In this document: positions 1 through 26,480 of the stretch, piece after piece
Layout of the letters: each line of letters opens with the position of its first letter
How positions within the stretch are numbered: the first letter of the stretch is position 1
Origin: Cerrena zonata
Lineage: Eukaryota > Basidiomycota > Agaricomycetes > Polyporales > Cerrenaceae
Direction: 5' to 3'
Length of the DNA: 64,000 nucleotides
Assembly: GCA_038087015.1 (NCBI GenBank)
Contig: JASBNA010000096.1
Location: forward strand, 1 to 64,000
Notes under the pieces: generated by a model
What the model was told of the DNA's origin: nothing
Database searches by the model: none
The model's input: only the letters and a program-made list of their open reading frames with translations
Translations under genes and position numbers: made by a program

Positions 1-116
1 TGTTGGGCTCAAGGAGTTGGGTCGCGAGGCGAGGCGAGTGCATGCATGGACCCGCTGTACTAGTGTAATAGCGAGTAGTGTATTTTGGTGGCGGGGATCG
101 GTTACATGTAGTCGCT

Positions 117-121
117 ATTAC
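117..121. repeat. 5-bp target site duplication, left of copy 1 (ATTAC)
   Basis: ATTAC lies directly before the 5' LTR and again directly after the 3' LTR at 6975-6979. A 5-bp duplication is usual for Ty3/gypsy integrases and shows that this copy entered by integration, not by recombination between copies. Confidence 0.95.
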
Positions 122-268
122 TGTCATGAACTTACTGTTTTTGGCAATACTTCTACTTTCATAACTAAGCATGTCTAAGGTTCTCACGATATAAGTGGAA
201 TGACTAAGCTCTCGATAATCACATGCTTACCAATGTACATAGCTTACTCAGCATTCTCTGAGCTCTTT

Positions 269-462
269 ATGCTATTGGCTTGTGCAATAGTGTATTACCA
301 AGCAGCCTTTGAGGCTTTTATGCTATTGGTTAGTTTGGCGGTTTAGCTTACTTATCATCAAGTCAGCTGACTCGTGACTAGTGAGGCTTTAATGCTATTG
401 GTTGGTTGCAGATATTGGATTGGTAATCTAGCATAGGGCGTGGGAAGGAGTGATCTGATTGG
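269..462 (+). promoter_or_regulatory. CCAAT-box cluster in the LTR U3 region
   Basis: ATGCTATTGG occurs at 269-278, 320-329 and 392-401, the last two inside a longer repeat that begins GAGGCTTT. Further ATTGG words lie at 414-418, 419-423 and 458-462. ATTGG is the reverse of CCAAT, the site of the HAP/NF-Y complex. Role inferred from motif and position upstream of the TATA box only. Confidence 0.5.
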
Positions 463-497
463 TTAGAAGGACATGTGCACAGCCACAGGCCGATTAG

Positions 498-505
498 TAT
501 ATATA
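498..505 (+). promoter_or_regulatory. TATA box of the LTR promoter
   Basis: TATATATA lies 35 nt upstream of A533, the first base of the 12-nt segment that matches the primer binding site. This spacing fits a transcript that begins at or near 533. Confidence 0.65.
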
Positions 506-724
506 GACCTTGTTTTCAGCAATACATCCCCCAGACTTGAGATACTACTCAATAGGAGTATTCAACTAAGACAGTTCCTACTCTTAGTCACCTGATTCAA
601 GGTGGTTGCCTGAATCTCCTAACTGAGACTTATCTGGGTTTTAACCTCTTAACATTGTTACTTAAGTATTAAGACAGAGTTCTTGTGGCAACCTAGGCAG
701 GTAAGTTTAGTTAGTCGCTGACAT

Positions 725-736
725 TATCTCAAGTCT
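725..736 (+). other. Self-priming primer binding site, copy 1
   Basis: The 12 nt TATCTCAAGTCT just after the 5' LTR are the perfect reverse complement of AGACTTGAGATA at 533-544, the predicted 5' end of the transcript. No tRNA-type TGG start is present. In the Tf1/sushi group the folded-back, cleaved 5' end of the element RNA primes reverse transcription; this arrangement fits that mechanism. Confidence 0.8.
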
Positions 737-770
737 CTCTACTGCCTACTTTACCCTCTTATACCTTTAC

Positions 771-1114
771 TCCTTTGGTTATAAAGGAAGTGTCTTTGTG
801 GTCAGATATAGAATTAGTTGGAATTCTATTAGTCTGAGTTTATTGAATAAAAGCACGGAGCCAAGAGTCCTCTAGTGGTATTCAATAAGTTTGTGATTAG
901 AACAATAGCACGGAGCCAAGAGTTCTCTAGTGGTGTTCAATCATTGTTTTAGTTTTGACAAAAGCACAGAGCCAGGAGTCCTCTAGTGGTGTCAAACTGT
1001 TTGTTTACTTGGTTATCATCAGAAGATAACAAGTAGTGTTACCTAGTTATTGTTACCTTGGATTCGGAATTGTGTGTGACTTGATTTATCAAGGAGCAAG
1101 CCTTGGTAAATAGT
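771..1114 (+). ncRNA. Structured retroelement leader: chain of hairpins with three repeated stem-loops
   Basis: Between LTR and gag I find successive potential hairpins: 771-788 (TCCTTT/AAAGGA), 803-836 (ATAGAATT/AATTCTAT), three repeats (below), 1007-1034 (stem with one bulged G) and 1079-1114. The three repeats are 840-888, 895-942 and 951-998. Each has exactly a 29-nt loop (850-878, 905-933, 961-989) with nearly constant sequence including GAGCCA/GAGCCAG and CTCTAGTGG. The closing stems differ in sequence but stay complementary: TTATTGAATA/TATTCAATAA, GATTaGAACA/TGTTCAATC, AGTTtTGACA/TGTCAAACT. Packaging, dimerisation or translation control are possible roles; none is proven. Confidence 0.7.
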
Positions 1115-1382
1115 CTCATTTGTGATACAGTGATCTTTGATACCGAGTTATTAAGGATCCCACTGTGGGCGGAAACCAGAAAGGTACTGGTGGACCAGTG
1201 TATCATCTTTTCCTAGTTATATTATTGTCATCGTGGATTACTTTGTGTATCGCTCAAGACCTTCAACACCTTCTTCAGAAGCACATTCAGAAGAACCCTC
1301 TACACCCTCAGTCAATCTATCACCTCAGTATCCCTCTACCCCACTTCTCTCACCAATAGTCAAACCTTTACAGTTACTCAGT

Positions 1383-2345
1383 ATGATGAATGACTCTGAC
1401 ACCAAAGTTCAGGGTGCTAAGCCAGCAGTCTTTGATGGAAGCAAAGCTAAGTATGCTTCATGGAGAAGACAAGTTATTCTATTCATTGCTGAAAAGAGAG
1501 ATAGGTTTGCAACAGACCAAGCTAAGATTCTGTTTACCTTATCTTATATGAAAGAAGGGTTTGCTGACAAATGGGCTCAGAACTATTTGGAAGCTAAGAT
1601 AGATGATGTTGGAGATGTTACTGTTACAGATACCTGGAAGGAGTTCTTGGAAGCATTGGACAAGTCCTTCAAGGATGCCAACTTCAGGTTGAATGCACAA
1701 GCTAAGTTGGAAGCTCTTAGGCAAGGACCTCGCACTGCAGATGAATACTTTGTAGAGTTTGAACAACTTATGGTTCAAGCAGGATTCAGGACTGGAGGAG
1801 ATCATGAGCAGTATTTGATCTCTAGGATTGAGCAAGGGCTCAGTTACCGCCTGATAGAAAGAGTCTATGATAGTGATTCTTTACCTACAAGTTATGAGAG
1901 CTACAAAGAGAAGGTTATCAGGATTGATAACATGCAGCGTAGACTTCAAGGTCGTATGAAGTCAGGACCTTTAGTGGTGAAACCCAACACCACAGTCACA
2001 ACTAACATGGGGCGGTTTACAAGATCTGAAGGATATCACACAACTGTACCTGCACGTAAAGATGGTACTGGTGTTACCTTTGGTGGTCATGGTCAGCCTA
2101 TGGACATAGATAGGTTGAGAAAGGAAAGACTCTGCTACAGATGTGGTCAGCCAGGACATATCAGTCGTAATTGTCCAATAAAACCACAGGTTGTTAGACA
2201 AGTTGAACAAGCAGATATTCCACAAGTGGATGTTGCAGATATGGCAAAGGAATTGACATGGGATCAGGTCAGAGAGCTGGTACATGCCAAGATGCCAGAG
2301 AATCCAACTCAAATGGATTTGGATTTTTGCAACGAGTCTCAGTAG
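1383..2345 (+). CDS. gag: Gag polyprotein, copy 1
   Basis: Structural protein that coats and packages the element RNA. The open frame reaches back to 1155, but its first ATG is at 1383 (second at 1386), giving 320 aa. No ATG occurs anywhere between the inferred transcript start at 533 and 1383, which supports this start. The middle of the protein looks like a retrotransposon Gag capsid domain (WRRQVILFI and following helices), and a CCHC zinc knuckle, CYRCGQPGHISRNC, lies near the C-terminus. The last 88 nt overlap pol in the -1 frame. Identical in copy 2. Confidence 0.92.
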   Translation: MMNDSDTKVQGAKPAVFDGSKAKYASWRRQVILFIAEKRDRFATDQAKILFTLSYMKEGFADKWAQNYLEAKIDDVGDVTVTDTWKEFLEALDKSFKDANFRLNAQAKLEALRQGPRTADEYFVEFEQLMVQAGFRTGGDHEQYLISRIEQGLSYRLIERVYDSDSLPTSYESYKEKVIRIDNMQRRLQGRMKSGPLVVKPNTTVTTNMGRFTRSEGYHTTVPARKDGTGVTFGGHGQPMDIDRLRKERLCYRCGQPGHISRNCPIKPQVVRQVEQADIPQVDVADMAKELTWDQVRELVHAKMPENPTQMDLDFCNESQ

Positions 2346-5300
2346 CTTCCCAGCTGCAGACTCAAATCAGTCAACATGCTGTTGAAATAGTATCTAAAAT
2401 TCAGGCTAGGGCGTCTCCTCAAGATAATGAGCGCGGTGGTGGTTCAGAGCCATGCTTAATTCCCTGTAATGCCCAGAATGAGGAGATTATTTTAGACAAG
2501 CCTGAGGATAAACCTAAGGAAGAATATGCAGAACCTTTTGGTAGTGTGTGGACTCTCAGGCGTATGCAAGAGAACAACTGCAGAAGTATTGGTATATTCA
2601 GAATGTGGGTACATCCAAAGAAACAGCATGAGGCTACTTGGGAAGAACTTCATAGGATTATTGGTTTGAATGATGAGCAAGCAATAGCAGAGCTAGAGGA
2701 ATATGCAAGACCTAAAAGTATCATCAGGGAAGGTCGTGGTAATCAATTGGATGTGTCAGCTGTACTTCAGACACTAGACAATTTGAACACCTTCACAGTA
2801 CAAGCACTTATTGATAGTGGCTGTATGGGATCTTCTATTGATACAAAGTTTGTCAAGAAACATGGTCTTACAACTAGAAAGTCTCCTCGACCTATACCAG
2901 TTTATAATGCAGATGGAAGTCGTAATAAGGCAGGACCAATTACTGAATTTGTTGAACTTGTTATGAAGATTCAAGATCATAGAGAAGTTATTGAACTTTC
3001 TGTGACTGATCTTGGCAGGTCTGACTTATTTATTGGTTATGACTGGCTGAAGTTACATAACCCTTCTGTTAACTGGCAGGAAGGAACTATCAAGTTTGAT
3101 CGCTGTCCCTCTCAGTGTGGCTATATGATGCGTATTTTGGAACCTGATGAAGATGAGGAAGAAGACTGTCAAAATCCCTTGGAGGAAGGAGACAGGCTTT
3201 TTCTTATGGATTACAGATCTTATCTTGGTCTAGATAAGTTACATGTTCGGGCAAAGGCAACTATATCTTCTAAGTTAGCAGAAGCAAGTAATGCTGACAA
3301 GATTAAGAAGGACTTTGAGAGTATAGTACCAGAGCACTATCAGGACTTTGCTGAGGTATTTGCAAAGCAGGAATTTGATACTCTGCCTGAACATAGACCA
3401 TGGGATCATGTGATTGAGCTGACTCCAGGTGCAAAGCCTTTAGATTGCAAGATCTACCCTTTGAACCTTGAAGAACAGAAGATGCTTGATGAATTCTTAG
3501 AAGAGAATTTACGCTCTGGACGTATCAGACCTTCAAAATCTCCTATGGCTTCACCATTCTTCTTTGTCAAGAAGAAAGATGGAAGTCTTAGACCTGTTCA
3601 GGATTATCGGAAGCTTAATGAGATGACTATCAAGAATAGGTATCCTATACCTCTCATCCCAGAGCTAGTGAACAAGTTGAAAGGAGCAAGGTATTTTACA
3701 AAGCTTGATGTACGTTGGGGATATAACAATGTTCGTATCAAGGAAGGTGATGAATGGAAAGCTGCTTTCAGAACCAACCGGGGACTATTTGAACCTCTTG
3801 TTATGTTCTTTGGACTAACAAACTCACCTGCTACTTTCCAAACTCTGATGAATGACTTGTTTAAGGATTTGATTAATCAAGGTGTAGTTGTTGTATACCT
3901 AGATGATATTATGATCTTCACCAAGACTCTGGAGGAACATAGACATATTGTTCGTAAAGTGTTACAGATTCTCAGAGAGCACAAGTTATATCTCAAAGCA
4001 GAGAAGTGTGAGTTTGAAGCAACTCAAGTTGAGTATCTTGGAATGATCATCTCTGAAGGACATGTTGGAATGGACCCTGTCAAAGTCCGTGGTGTATCTG
4101 AATGGCCTGTGCCAAAATGCAAGAGAGATGTTCAAGCATTTTTAGGATTTACCAATTTCTATCGCCGCTTTATACTAGGATATGGAGATATTGCAAGACC
4201 ATTGACATCTCTGACTGGAAAAGCAGATTGGACTTGGGGAGATTCACAACAGAAGGCTTTTGAGCAGATCAAAGAAAGCATTATCACAGCACCTGTTCTT
4301 GTTATTCCTACAGATGATGAACCCTATCGGGTGGAATGTGATGCATCTGATTATGCAGTTGGAGCAGTTTTGTCTCAAATGCATGATGGGAAGTGGCATC
4401 CTGTTGCCTTTCTGTCTAAATCTATGACCGCTGTTGAGCGCAATTATGAGATTTATGACAAGGAACTTTTAGCTATGATGACTGCATTAGATGAGTGGAG
4501 ACACTATCTGATGGGTGCAAAGCATGAGTTTGAGATCTGGACAGACCACAAGAACCTTGAGTACTTTAGGAAACCCCAGAAACTCAATCGCAGGCAAGCT
4601 AGATGGGTAACAGAGTTAGCAAACTATCATTTCAGTTTACATCATAAACCTGGGAGATTACACACTAAGCCAGATCTTCTGTCAAGGCGTGTAGACCATT
4701 ATCGAGGTCAAGATGATAATGAGAATGTGGTACTGTTAAAGCCTTACTGGTTCAGAGCTATGGAATTTGAGATTGTTCAGGATAATAGTCTTCTAGAACG
4801 AATCAAGAAACTTGGAAGGGGTCGTGACAGTGCAGTGGAAAAAGCACTGGTCAATCAGGAGAAGGGATGGGAAGAATCTGATGGAATTATCACCTGGCAT
4901 GGTCGTATCTATGTACCAAGAGATAAACAACTTCGTGAAGAGATCATTCAAATACATCATGATTCTATAATGGCTGGACATCCTGGTCGTTATAAAACTC
5001 ATGAGCTGATTACTCGCAATTACTGGTGGCCAAGGATCCGTGCAGATGTCCAAGCTTATGTGACTGGATGTGAGGTTTGTCAAAGAACTAAACCCCATCA
5101 TGAGAAGCTTGCAGCACCCTTGCAACCTAATGAAGTTCCATCTCGGCCTTGGGAAATTATCTCTGTTGATATGATTGGACCTCTTCCAGAGTCACAAGGA
5201 TATGATGCAATTCTGGTAATAGTTGATGTTGGTGGAAAGCAGATTATACCTCTTCCAACTAATATTGAACTTACATCAGAAGGTTGGGCTAAAATACTAC

Positions 5301-6361
5301 GTGATCATGTATTTGTATATCATGGCCTTCCACACAAGATTATCAGTGACAGAGGACCTCAGTTTGTATCTAAGTTCATTAAGGCTCTTTATGAACTACT
5401 AGGTATTAAAGGAAATCCATCCACAGCATATCATCCTCAAACTGATGGACAGACTGAACGTGTTAATCAAGAAATTGAGCAATATCTTCGTGTGTTTGTA
5501 AATCACAGACAAGATGATTGGGCTGAGTGGTTACCAATGGCTGGTTTTGCTTATAATGACAAAACTCAGTCTTCCACAGGATTTTCTCCATTCTATGTTA
5601 ACAAAGGTTTTCATCCTTGGAAAGGTCATGAGGCAAGACGTGAAGTCAAGAATGTGACAGCTGAGCAATTTGCAGATCGTATCAAGGAAATTCAATCTGA
5701 GGCTGCATCTGCAATGAAAGCATCACAAGAAATGATGAAACGATACTATGATCGTACAAAGAAGGAATCCAGGAAATATGATGTTGGAGATAGAGTATGG
5801 TTAGAAGGATACAATATCAAGACCAACAGACCAATGAAGAAACTGGAAGACAAGCGGTATGGACCATTTAAGATTACAGAGAAAATAGGAAAGTCTGCAT
5901 ATCGACTTCAATTACCAAGTACTTGGAGGTCAATACATCCTGTTTTCAATGAAGTAGTTCTAACTCCATATGTTGCACCTATTTATTCCTCACAACAGAA
6001 GCCACTCCCTCCCCTACCTGAGATCATTGAAGGTAAAGAGGAGTACAATGTTGAAAGTATTTTAGATTCAAAGGTTGAACGAGGAATATTAAAGTACCTT
6101 ATCCACTGGGAAGGCTATCCTAGATCAGAGGAAACTTGGGAACCTGCATCACAGTTGACAAATGCTCAGAAAGCTGTCAAGGACTTTCATAAGCGTCATC
6201 CAAGTGCACCCAGGCCTAAGCCTAAACAGCTGAGATTTGTAGAACTGGACCATTTAACTCGGCCAACTAAACCATCTAGAATGTACCCATCATGGCTTTT
6301 TAACTGGGAAGATGGTGTATATGAAAGAACTCTTGCAAGATCACGAGGACGTGATCCTTAA
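2258..6361 (+). CDS. pol: Pol polyprotein (PR-RT-RH-IN-chromodomain), copy 1
   Basis: Open frame of 1367 codons, expressed by frameshift from gag; the first Met is only where the open frame has an ATG. Order: aspartic protease (ALIDSGCMGSS, about residue 185), reverse transcriptase (LDVRWGYNNVRI; active site YLDDIMIF), RNase H (ECDASDYAVGAVL; TDHKNLEYF), integrase with HHCC zinc finger (CEVCQRTK) and a DDE core (VDMIGPL, ISDRGPQF, HPQTDGQTERVNQ), then a C-terminal chromodomain (YLIHWEGYPRSEETWEP). All catalytic motifs look intact and there is no stop. The chromodomain probably directs insertion to methylated-histone chromatin. One codon differs from copy 2: Met (G4513) here, Ile (A29611) there, in RNase H. 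Confidence 0.96.
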   Translation: MGSGQRAGTCQDARESNSNGFGFLQRVSVASQLQTQISQHAVEIVSKIQARASPQDNERGGGSEPCLIPCNAQNEEIILDKPEDKPKEEYAEPFGSVWTLRRMQENNCRSIGIFRMWVHPKKQHEATWEELHRIIGLNDEQAIAELEEYARPKSIIREGRGNQLDVSAVLQTLDNLNTFTVQALIDSGCMGSSIDTKFVKKHGLTTRKSPRPIPVYNADGSRNKAGPITEFVELVMKIQDHREVIELSVTDLGRSDLFIGYDWLKLHNPSVNWQEGTIKFDRCPSQCGYMMRILEPDEDEEEDCQNPLEEGDRLFLMDYRSYLGLDKLHVRAKATISSKLAEASNADKIKKDFESIVPEHYQDFAEVFAKQEFDTLPEHRPWDHVIELTPGAKPLDCKIYPLNLEEQKMLDEFLEENLRSGRIRPSKSPMASPFFFVKKKDGSLRPVQDYRKLNEMTIKNRYPIPLIPELVNKLKGARYFTKLDVRWGYNNVRIKEGDEWKAAFRTNRGLFEPLVMFFGLTNSPATFQTLMNDLFKDLINQGVVVVYLDDIMIFTKTLEEHRHIVRKVLQILREHKLYLKAEKCEFEATQVEYLGMIISEGHVGMDPVKVRGVSEWPVPKCKRDVQAFLGFTNFYRRFILGYGDIARPLTSLTGKADWTWGDSQQKAFEQIKESIITAPVLVIPTDDEPYRVECDASDYAVGAVLSQMHDGKWHPVAFLSKSMTAVERNYEIYDKELLAMMTALDEWRHYLMGAKHEFEIWTDHKNLEYFRKPQKLNRRQARWVTELANYHFSLHHKPGRLHTKPDLLSRRVDHYRGQDDNENVVLLKPYWFRAMEFEIVQDNSLLERIKKLGRGRDSAVEKALVNQEKGWEESDGIITWHGRIYVPRDKQLREEIIQIHHDSIMAGHPGRYKTHELITRNYWWPRIRADVQAYVTGCEVCQRTKPHHEKLAAPLQPNEVPSRPWEIISVDMIGPLPESQGYDAILVIVDVGGKQIIPLPTNIELTSEGWAKILRDHVFVYHGLPHKIISDRGPQFVSKFIKALYELLGIKGNPSTAYHPQTDGQTERVNQEIEQYLRVFVNHRQDDWAEWLPMAGFAYNDKTQSSTGFSPFYVNKGFHPWKGHEARREVKNVTAEQFADRIKEIQSEAASAMKASQEMMKRYYDRTKKESRKYDVGDRVWLEGYNIKTNRPMKKLEDKRYGPFKITEKIGKSAYRLQLPSTWRSIHPVFNEVVLTPYVAPIYSSQQKPLPPLPEIIEGKEEYNVESILDSKVERGILKYLIHWEGYPRSEETWEPASQLTNAQKAVKDFHKRHPSAPRPKPKQLRFVELDHLTRPTKPSRMYPSWLFNWEDGVYERTLARSRGRDP
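2325..2334 (+). other. Candidate -1 ribosomal frameshift region (T5 run) in the gag-pol overlap
   Basis: Pol is in the -1 frame relative to gag and overlaps it at 2258-2345. GGATTTTTGC is the only homopolymer-rich stretch late in the overlap; a Phe tRNA on TTT could slip back one base. It is not a perfect X-XXY-YYZ heptamer, so this assignment is tentative. The overlap is the same in copy 2, so it is not a random frameshift mutation. Confidence 0.35.
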
Positions 6362-6369
6362 GGAGGGGG
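6361..6369 (+). other. Polypurine tract, copy 1
   Basis: AGGAGGGGG lies three bases before the 3' LTR and overlaps the pol stop codon TAA (6359-6361). It should prime plus-strand synthesis. Confidence 0.85.
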
Positions 6370-6372
6370 TAA

Positions 6373-6974
6373 TGTCATGAACTTACTGTTTTTGGCAATA
6401 CTTCTACTTTCATAACTAAGCATGTCTAAGGTTCTCACGATATAAGTGGAATGACTAAGCTCTCGATAATCACATGCTTACCAATGTACATAGCTTACTC
6501 AGCATTCTCTGAGCTCTTTATGCTATTGGCTTGTGCAATAGTGTATTACCAAGCAGCCTTTGAGGCTTTTATGCTATTGGTTAGTTTGGCGGTTTAGCTT
6601 ACTTATCATCAAGTCAGCTGACTCGTGACTAGTGAGGCTTTAATGCTATTGGTTGGTTGCAGATATTGGATTGGTAATCTAGCATAGGGCGTGGGAAGGA
6701 GTGATCTGATTGGTTAGAAGGACATGTGCACAGCCACAGGCCGATTAGTATATATAGACCTTGTTTTCAGCAATACATCCCCCAGACTTGAGATACTACT
6801 CAATAGGAGTATTCAACTAAGACAGTTCCTACTCTTAGTCACCTGATTCAAGGTGGTTGCCTGAATCTCCTAACTGAGACTTATCTGGGTTTTAACCTCT
6901 TAACATTGTTACTTAAGTATTAAGACAGAGTTCTTGTGGCAACCTAGGCAGGTAAGTTTAGTTAGTCGCTGACA
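6373..6974 (+). repeat. 3' LTR, copy 1
   Basis: 602 bp, no difference seen from the 5' LTR. Followed by the ATTAC target duplication at 6975-6979. Confidence 0.96.
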
Positions 6975-6979
6975 ATTAC

Positions 6980-8072
6980 CGTTATTTAGAGATACGAAGG
7001 GCAATACGAAACGGACGTTAAAAATGAGAACGTACCAGCGTTGCTAAGCGATGTGAGTGTGGTTCGAGGTGATATGTGCTGTAGGATGATGAGGAGAGGA
7101 TCAATCAAGTCGCGAGTCAGCTCGCACTCGCAAGGATCATACGCAGACGTCACGCGGGATTCGGTATCGCAAGAAAATGATTCAATTCACAGGGGTTTGG
7201 TGATACAAAAAGACCGATCGCGATCGCGATCATCTAAGAAAACATAGGCGATAGATTCCTCGCTCCCATACTCGCTCTATTTCTTCTCTCCATTGGTCAA
7301 ACGAAGGACGCGGCCAATCTTGAGGATGAATTTGCGAATGCGAGAGGTTTGGGGTGGATCAAGGGAGAACGACTAGGAGCGAGCGATCAGGAGCAGCACA
7401 GGAAAGAAAAGAGGAGGCTTACAGATGCACCAGTGTCCGCAGATTCCAACGTAGGAGGTCCGCGTAAACGTTTGGAGACGTCCTAAGTTGCATTAGTGAG
7501 AGGGGAACAATAGCGAAGTAAACATGTACATACCATGGTAGTAACGGTGAATTGGGATGCCTGACCCATGGAAATGGATTGTAATGGGTAGAGTGGATAG
7601 TGTAAGGGCTTGTAGGAAGTGGGAGAGTGTTTGAGTATTGAGTTTGAGGGTGAGTGAAGGTGAAAGACAAGGAGAGTTGAAGTGGAAACCCAAGTACAAC
7701 CAAAGCTCTCGCGCTGTCGATCGCAATAAATGTCGACCCATATATGGTATGTTAGCAATAAATGGGCTGCGAGGGTGGTTAGGGACAACAACCAAACAAA
7801 AATGGACCGTTCGAACTGTAGAAGCGACTGTAGGAAGGCCATGAAAAGTCTACTATTGTTGATGCGAGCGGATTGAACAAGGAGATAGCGAAATTGTGTG
7901 AATCGATCGCAGGCTCAAAGTGCGACAGAAACTGAAAGAAAGTGGTCAAATTGGGACGGTTCTTGTAGATGTGGGCATGCATATGATGGGCTGAAATGCG
8001 GAGATAAAGTAATAGTGAAACAACTGTGTGCCAAATCGATGCGAGGTCAAATGCGAACAAAATATATAGAGA
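6980..8072. other. Noncoding accessory DNA left of the satellite
   Basis: No convincing gene. Open frames here are short, overlapping and without family likeness. The stretch is rich in GCGA and CGATCG words, for example the run of GATCGC units near 7218-7231, like the DNA of the cassette to its right and the 121 bases left of copy 1. Confidence 0.5.
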
Positions 8073-8889
8073 AGAAATACCATAAACGGAAATGTCAATT
8101 TGGCGACATAGCGTGAGGAACGAGCTTTTCGCTGCTCAGGCGAGTTGTCCGAATCGATCGTTTGCATCAACGGTCCTGCTTTGCGACGACGAAATGAGCG
8201 CGAGAGCAATATAGAGGCGAAAACCGATGTTTTAACGAAATACCTTAAATGGTAATGTCAATTTGGCGGCGTAACGTGAGGAACAAGCTTTTCGCTGCTC
8301 AGGCGAGTTGTCCGAATCGATCGTTTGCATCAACGGTCCTGCTTTGCGACGACGAAATGAGCGCGAGAGCAATATGGAGGCGAAAACCGATGTTTTAACG
8401 AAATACCTTAAATGGTAATGTCAATTTGGCGACGTAACGTGAGGAACAAGCTTTTCGCTGCTCAGGCGAGTTGTCCGAATCGATCGTTTGCATCAACGGT
8501 CTTGCTTTGCGACGATGAGATTAACGCGAGAGCAATATAAAGATGAAAAACGATGTTTTAACGAAATACCTTAAATGGTAATGTCAATTTGGTGACGTAA
8601 CATGAGGAACAAGCTTTTCGCTGCTCAGGCGAGTTGTCCGAATCGATCGTTTGCATCAACGGTCCTGCTTTGCGATGACGAAATGAGCGCGAGAGCAATA
8701 TGGAGGCGAAAACCGATGTTTTAACGAAATACCTTAAATGGTAATGTCAATTTGGCGGCGTAACGTGAGGAACGAGCTTTTCGCTGCTCAGGCGAGTTGT
8801 CCGAATCGATCGTTTGCATCAACGGTCCTGCTTTGCGACGATGAGATTAACGCGAGAGCAATATAAAGATGAAAAACGATGTTTTAACG
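8073..8889. repeat. 163-bp tandem repeat, about five units
   Basis: A unit containing GAGGAACRAGCTTTTCGCTG starts at 8115, 8278, 8441, 8604 and 8767, exactly 163 bp apart. A diverged partial unit precedes (8073-8114) and the last copy stops near 8889. Copies differ by only a few bases, mostly transitions. No open frame is kept through the array. It lies at the left side of the KDZ cassette and may be subterminal or satellite DNA. Confidence 0.92.
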
Positions 8890-9223
8890 GGAAAAAAACA
8901 CCGAGACTCGCCTAGATGTGAGTGCGAATGCATAGCTGGCGGCTGGCGGAGCGAAGATGATTGCAGACTTGGTACTCTGCGAAAAACCCAATCAAAATCC
9001 ACATTTATCGAAGCTACATAGGATTAGAATGCGTATTTACATAGAGGTAATGGTGCTACTTGGAGGGCTCAGGTTTCACCGCTGGGCCTAACGATTTGTG
9101 CATCAACGACTGCCAGCGGTTATAGATGTAAAATATCATTCGAATGGATTGCCGAGTGCTTTCGGCTTGAATGGTGGTCGTGTAGCGCACAGTGGTATAC
9201 TTCTAAAGAAATGATATTGCACA
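8890..9223. other. Noncoding stretch between satellite and small gene
   Basis: No open frame or repeat that I can support. It probably holds the 3' end of the minus-strand transcripts to its right, and could hold one terminus of the KDZ element; I found no inverted repeat that proves this. Confidence 0.4.
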
Positions 9224-25834: not shown

Positions 25835-25868
25835 CTCTACTGCCTACTTTACCCTCTTATACCTTTAC

Positions 25869-26212
25869 TCCTTTGGTTATAAAGGAAGTGTCTTTGTGGT
25901 CAGATATAGAATTAGTTGGAATTCTATTAGTCTGAGTTTATTGAATAAAAGCACGGAGCCAAGAGTCCTCTAGTGGTATTCAATAAGTTTGTGATTAGAA
26001 CAATAGCACGGAGCCAAGAGTTCTCTAGTGGTGTTCAATCATTGTTTTAGTTTTGACAAAAGCACAGAGCCAGGAGTCCTCTAGTGGTGTCAAACTGTTT
26101 GTTTACTTGGTTATCATCAGAAGATAACAAGTAGTGTTACCTAGTTATTGTTACCTTGGATTCGGAATTGTGTGTGACTTGATTTATCAAGGAGCAAGCC
26201 TTGGTAAATAGT
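25869..26212 (+). ncRNA. Structured leader hairpins, copy 2
   Basis: The same chain of hairpins as 771-1114 in copy 1, with the three 29-nt-loop repeats at 25938-25986, 25993-26040 and 26049-26096. Confidence 0.65.
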
Positions 26213-26480
26213 CTCATTTGTGATACAGTGATCTTTGATACCGAGTTATTAAGGATCCCACTGTGGGCGGAAACCAGAAAGGTACTGGTGGACCAGTGTA
26301 TCATCTTTTCCTAGTTATATTATTGTCATCGTGGATTACTTTGTGTATCGCTCAAGACCTTCAACACCTTCTTCAGAAGCACATTCAGAAGAACCCTCTA
26401 CACCCTCAGTCAATCTATCACCTCAGTATCCCTCTACCCCACTTCTCTCACCAATAGTCAAACCTTTACAGTTACTCAGT

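Follow-up and report, generated by a model that had tools for sequence, protein, structure and literature searches.

The leader of a Ty3/gypsy chromovirus in the fungus Cerrena zonata carries three tandem hairpin units at 839–998, in which a near-constant 29-nt core is mounted on three different stems. This observation, confirmed here, was made in the window, as we term the whole 64,000-nt stretch of DNA analyzed, which starts on contig C96. As a tentative interpretation, the array would provide repeated sites for a core-reading protein, most likely the element's own Gag, and would thus be a candidate packaging signal. The case for the array derives from covariation, not from stability.

A self-priming chromovirus as host element

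A gag gene, a pol order of PR-RT-RH-IN plus chromodomain, LTRs and a target duplication mark the element at 122–6974 as a Ty3/gypsy chromovirus (Table 1). In pol, Pfam matches to RVP_2, Integrase_H2C2, RT, RNase H and Chromo lay above the cut-off, and rve and two of three protease models matched below it. Named relatives of Gag came from Suillus only, with 30–31% identity; a Gag 83% identical (P0001) is encoded on a 1,871-nt contig. Because 533–544 and the primer-binding site (PBS) at 725–736 are perfectly complementary over 12 nt, the layout is of the Tf1 type and places the element in the self-priming Tf1/sushi group, judging from the cited parts of two reports (PMC4600332, PMC7175516). We infer a transcription start at 533 from a TATA-like box about 30 nt upstream. 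In the Tf1/sushi group, the primer is released when RNase H cuts the RNA.

Two further features were noted. Near the LTR end, a splice-donor-like GTAAGT (701–706) is followed by CTGAC, and leader splicing is possible. At 8074–9025, a tandem repeat with 163-nt spacing was seen; of five 300-nt segments in register, three are 94–95% and the last is 66% identical to the first.

Table 1 Coordinates of the chromovirus, its leader and the hairpin array in the window
Feature	Position	Strand	Details
Target duplication ATTAC	117–121 and after 6974		Flanks both LTRs
5′ LTR	122–723	+	602 nt; identical to 3′ LTR (6373–6974), no mismatch
TATA-like box	498–505	+	28–35 nt upstream of the putative RNA start; read from sequence
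Putative transcript 5′ end, AGACTTGAGATA	533–544	+	Self-primer; 12-nt perfect complement to 725–736
Leader without ATG	533–1382	+	850 nt; 0 ATG versus 10.0 expected
Self-priming PBS	725–736	+	One base past the 5′ LTR
Upstream flanking hairpins	771–836	+	Two predicted; stretch folded alone
Hairpin unit H1	839–890	+	Arms 841–849/879–887 and beyond; core 850–878
Hairpin unit H2	894–943	+	Arms 894–904 (bulged A) and 934–943; core 905–933
Hairpin unit H3	951–998	+	Arms 951–960 (bulged U) and 990–998; core 961–989
Downstream flanking hairpins	1007–1114	+	Predicted; clearest at 1007–1034 and near 1084–1111; stretch folded alone
gag	1383–2345	+	Retrotrans_gag, one CCHC zinc knuckle
pol frame	2258–6361	+	Protease, RT, RNase H, integrase, SH3_Tf2-1, chromodomain
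Second leader copy	25858–26218	+	100% identical over the 361 nt compared; own three units at 25950–26088

Near-constant cores on covarying stems

The three units are spaced 55–56 nt apart. Their cores differ from one another at 2, 2 and 4 of 29 positions (25–27 of 29 identical), in agreement with the initial annotation, which had described near-constant 29-nt loops. It had further described three differing stems that each remain complementary, two of them with a single bulge, and both points held: when no more than one bulge is allowed inside 13-nt flanks, the arms of each unit form 13, 11 and 10 base pairs, compared with 1–9 for arms exchanged between units. Random 13-nt flanks drawn from a dinucleotide model of the leader reached at least 10 pairs in 326 of 300,000 draws. 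With bulges removed, nine pair positions are common to the three stems; all 27 cells hold standard pairs, and at five of the nine positions the pair is changed on both sides. When an equal number of arm differences was placed at random, every pair was kept in ~1% (H1–H2), 0.08% (H2–H3) and 0.04% (H1–H3) of cases, the three figures being mutually non-independent. In the window family, the array evidence comes from three stems, and CpG decay was excluded as the cause of their changes by reading them by eye.

An Rfam search of window positions 1–7500 with E values up to 5 yielded no match in the leader, consistent with the earlier statement that no named element with this loop is known. The sole match (4305–4427) scored below the gathering score and lies outside the leader.

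Predicted folding and array scores

An open 29-nt loop is probably the wrong description for H1 and H3: energy models predict an additional inner stem, CAC-GGAG/CUCU-A-GUG, that closes the core down to a 9-nt loop. Pair probabilities over the seven pairs of this inner stem were 0.56–0.75 in H1, 0.90–0.96 in H3 and 0.10–0.35 in H2. When 837–1002 was folded alone, the outer stems reached mean pair probabilities of 0.91 (H1), 0.79 (H2) and 0.69 (H3). In the longer contexts 771–1114, 760–1120 and 533–1382, H1 stayed at 0.76–0.90, with H2 at 0.10–0.15 and H3 at 0.00–0.03; in the minimum free energy structure of 760–1120, H1 was also missing. Hairpins flanking the array, another element of the initial annotation, were predicted on both sides (Table 1).

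The folding energy of 837–1002 is ordinary (z = −0.20; 76 of 200 shuffles equal or better), and that of 760–1120 has a z value of −2.43. Stems of at least nine Watson–Crick pairs number five in the leader versus a shuffle mean of 3.0 and maximum of 7, which gives no separation. A general array score that allows short loops was 5 for the window, which 4 of 100 shuffles and 1 of 38 control tiles also attained; with loops of 12–32 nt, the window scored above all 300 shuffles (maximum 4), of which 7 were above zero, as was 1 of 38 tiles. The stems covary in this region between PBS and gag, yet the energy of the array is ordinary and H2 and H3 are unpredicted in longer contexts. The proposal of selection on RNA structure accordingly stands in part: compensating changes among the units and in families F and B (below) speak for it, whereas it finds no support in the folding energy or in the longer contexts, where the models form H1 alone.

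The same observations bear on the idea that the hairpin has no function and was duplicated by template switching, its pairing being a remnant or chance. Ordinary energy, the loss of H2 and H3 from longer-context predictions and a window family with three stems only would all fit, as would a variable number of units, which falls from three to two in one copy (C77) and takes the form of differing repeats across the seven copies of family C. A remnant would lose pairs as it diverges, however; here, all 27 cells are still paired although both sides of five of the nine pairs have changed, and families F and B repeat the kept pairing. We therefore regard an absence of function as very unlikely.

Element copies and genomic distribution of the core

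In the genome searched (55.5 Mb, 171 contigs), the leader is present in at least eight copies, of which seven have three units and the C77 copy is without one 55-nt unit. Changes within the array are few: single core transitions, an A-U to G-U change in H3 that stays paired (two copies) and a G-C to A-C change in H1 of C77, where the mismatch breaks the pair and the predicted hairpin is lost. The eight copies are too similar for a covariation test.

LTR pairs are identical in the window copy and in three of the other seven, and the remaining four pairs show 1, 3, 4 and 11 differences. Where there are three or four, one of the LTRs is 51 nt shorter; it is the 5′ LTR in C77 and the 3′ LTR in C25. 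Flank duplications are swapped among C7b (L007/L074), C25 (L003/L075) and C77 (L008/L069): AGTTC is found both 3′ of C7b and 5′ of C25, and GCTGT both 3′ of C25 and 5′ of C77. Either exchange between copies or an assembly chimera would account for this. With 11 LTR differences and swapped flanks, L007 gives no clean age.

A 28-nt core pattern with up to three mismatches matched the whole genome 23 times, always inside the eight copies. A looser pattern gave 28 matches, five of them outside the copies (three mismatches each) versus five for a reversed control. Beyond this genome, a 21-nt core pattern had no exact match in IMG/VR or GTDB contigs, and an RT search of IMG/VR returned no relative.

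This distribution is relevant to a second alternative, in which the hairpins bind not Gag but a host RNA-binding protein involved in localization, stability or silencing. RNA-binding proteins commonly recognize a loop irrespective of the stem that carries it, and loops differ between families, as if each had its own partner. Outside the eight copies, however, the core is absent from the genome at up to three mismatches, so a host protein would lack other targets with this core there, and we know of no host motif in the core. A host partner is quite unlikely.

Hairpins in other families of the genome

Our family survey covers the fetched leaders. By RT, the closest other family has identities of 75 and 74% (L047, L048), and its Gag 37% (L018, L017). 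Its L018 leader is short, with the self-priming complement present and no repeated hairpins. Whether relatives let their loops diverge or their stems come unpaired thus has a mixed answer: the closest other family is without the array, and in one of the eight copies, a unit is gone and a stem is partly lost.

Two more distant, self-priming families, F and B, share the architecture but carry different loops. The family F leader L027 contains eight AACGNAYC loops on differing stems, none with fewer than four standard closing pairs, and its other six ACG sites are closed by 0–3 pairs. Likewise in L026, all seven AACGNAYC loops are closed by at least four pairs, and one of seven other ACG sites closes by four. 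Array scores were 17 (L027) and 14 (L026) versus shuffle maxima of 5 and 4, with 0 of 100 shuffles reaching them in either case. Across the eight hairpins, all five stem changes between L027 and L026 keep pairing and two pairs are changed on both sides; in simulations, P was 0.014 for the absence of any break and 0.0014 for two kept double changes. Family B (L028–L034, L037) was read in 12 copies from 15 listed places, leaving aside L031, where the stretch is interrupted, and the C98 and C77 copies. Its hairpin has 70 of 72 stem cells paired across these copies, five of which are at 72–77% identity, and four of six pairs show a change on both sides; the automated array score, which requires equal loop lengths, is 0. 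In families B and F, CpG decay can look like compensation, since two deaminations turn C-G into U-A; one family B pair changed from U-A to A-U, beyond such decay.

In family C (L020–L025, L036), hairpin-like units with the loops AACGTAG and CACGGA, located around the two repeats of this family, vary in number among seven copies; both copies that were scored gave an array score of 0. Families E (L038) and A (L018) also scored 0. ACGNA was considered as a motif common to the window core and the loops of families C and F and was left as possible chance. Five upstream stretches from other families, L076–L080 (2,401 nt each), showed neither an 11-nt self-priming complement nor a long ATG-free run; their array scores of 10, 10, 4, 6 and 4 were reached by 0, 0, 23, 2 and 24 of 60 shuffles. 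The similar elements L076 (266, 1081, 1154) and L077 (229, 1044, 1117) each have three hairpins with 9-nt GACACCGTC-like loops and differing stems, in a stretch that may be coding sequence. Because these two score above chance although their stretches lack a self-priming signal, arrays may extend beyond self-priming families.

The self-priming complement between the 5′ stretch and the PBS-like site measures 12 nt in the window, 12 nt in family F and 10 nt in family B. It would suit a contribution of the array to reverse transcription, through a leader fold bringing the 5′ end to the PBS or through dimer contacts; for Tf1, the cited part of one report describes RNA structures by which bases 1–11 reach the PBS (PMC7175516). 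Two features run counter to such a role, which we consider decidedly unlikely. The array lies 103–262 nt downstream of the PBS, outside the primer–PBS interval, and no core palindrome exceeds 4 nt. Dimerization through the loops, one of the functions originally suggested, is likewise unfavored: it would call for a loop palindrome of about 6 nt, and among lengths of 4, 6 and 8 nt, each core has CTAG as its sole palindrome.

ATG-free leaders and a possible Gag extension

As few ATGs as in the window leader occurred in 0 of 2,000 and 1 of 1,000 simulated sequences. ATG-free leaders recur in the family C copy L023 (1,355 nt, 9.5 expected) and the family F copy L027 (843 nt, 7.1 expected). Between self-primer and gag, the C copies L021–L024 have no ATG, L020 has one, L025 two and L036 at least five. 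One leader ATG is present in the F copy L026 and two in L007, of which one stems from a C-to-T change within the H1 core. In the B copy L029, positions 612 to 1407 are ATG-free (3.6 expected; 23 of 1,000 simulations equally few), and the equivalent stretches of L033 and L037 contain some ATGs.

Upstream of its ATG, the gag frame is open for 75 codons in the window (1158–1382), 249 in L023 (751–1497) and 193 in L029 (829–1407), with no ATG in any frame of these extensions. Translations of the L023 and L029 extensions are protein-like, with a Pro-rich linker. Between-copy changes at the three codon positions number 12, 20 and 35 in family C, favoring third positions, and 15, 6 and 19 in family B, where the lean is less clear. 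A Gag extension from a non-AUG start is possible on this evidence. Separately, L029 has a small open reading frame before gag at 284–612 (~109 codons, by eye), whose initial hydrophobic stretch resembles a membrane anchor.

Because the leader is ATG free and the open gag frame is protein-like in L023 and L029, translation is the main rival explanation. Ribosomes would scan through the leader to gag, and their slowing at the hairpins would adjust initiation, perhaps including that at a non-AUG codon farther upstream. The ATG counts of the window, L023 and L027, the open frames and the codon-position changes are all consistent with this model. Freedom from ATG accounts for scanning, however, not for a constant core on free stems. 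Moreover, the open extension frame begins ~160 nt past the end of the window array, and leader ATGs do occur in L007, L026, L020, L025 and L036. Stems of 4–6 bp, as in family F, would hardly slow scanning. That the hairpins serve translation is, in our view, unlikely.

Discussion

We tentatively favor packaging by Gag as the role of the array. A core that stays constant while its stems need only pair points to a core-reading protein, and several core copies in one RNA would suit a protein that assembles. Position between PBS and gag, together with the knuckle of Gag, suggests Gag as that protein and packaging as the function. The stems of H1–H3 would need to pair and nothing more, the information residing in the core, probably in its short inner stem and 9-nt loop. 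Repeated units would offer several sites for one core-reading protein, and if this is the zinc knuckle-containing Gag, it could pick out genomic RNA and condense it into particles. What we infer from sequence is that the hairpins fold in the cell, that a protein binds them and that this protein is Gag.

Retroviral packaging signals, which encapsidation requires in cis, lie between PBS and gag, and both the location of the array in this part of the leader and its covarying stems argue for the packaging reading, as do the hairpins of families F and B. Several results argue against it: L018, from the nearest other family, self-primes without such an array; the folding energy does not exceed that of shuffles (z = −0.20), and H2 and H3 have pair probabilities of at most 0.15 in longer contexts; in C77, one unit is gone and H1 contains an A-C mismatch; and family C scored 0 in two tested copies. 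Retroviral packaging signals near the RNA 5′ end are bound by Gag, according to the cited part of one report (PMC8396678), and cis packaging requirements of yeast Ty3 are described, in the part cited here, as imprecisely defined and involving both UTRs and POL (PMC11381356).

More doubtful is a general form of the proposal, in which family-specific hairpin arrays in ATG-free leaders of fungal self-priming chromoviruses constitute a packaging code for the element's own RNA. If true, several families in one genome would each recognize their own RNA through their own constant loop on freely covarying stems. The way in which LTR retrotransposons select their own RNA is poorly understood, and three to eight cores on different stems offer a natural experiment on which bases matter, in a format suited to short test RNAs. 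The leaders also permit asking whether families of the same genome use different loops against packaging each other's RNA. Structured leaders of retroelements are already known; what looks new is the combination of constant cores and covarying stems in arrays whose loops differ among several self-priming families of the same genome. The titles and abstracts searched contained nothing on constant-core hairpin arrays in retrotransposon leaders, which leaves their absence unproven.

Leaders of yeast Ty3 and Ty1 have a structured 5′ end with PBS, dimer and packaging elements, to which the predicted hairpins of the window leader are comparable; they differ in using tRNA primers and palindromic dimer sites, and the cited parts of the reports describe no constant-core array (PMC11381356, PMC8396678). 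Similar in layout are Tf1 and Tj1, self-priming chromoviruses of the Tf1/sushi type, in which, as in the 12-nt match found here, the transcript start complements the PBS: the first 11 bases in Tf1 (PMC7175516), with Tj1 likewise self-priming (PMC4600332), as the cited passages state. These passages do not mention a hairpin array. SH3_Tf2-1 and a chromodomain in the integrase are also shared with the Tf1/sushi group, whereas the window element is set apart from Tf1 and Tj1 by the overlap of its gag and pol frames and by an 850-nt ATG-free leader with an array of repeated hairpins.

In murine leukemia virus, several packaging hairpins lie between PBS and gag, like the array. Their core sequences are unlike those of the window; by position, the array would be a candidate for an analogous signal.
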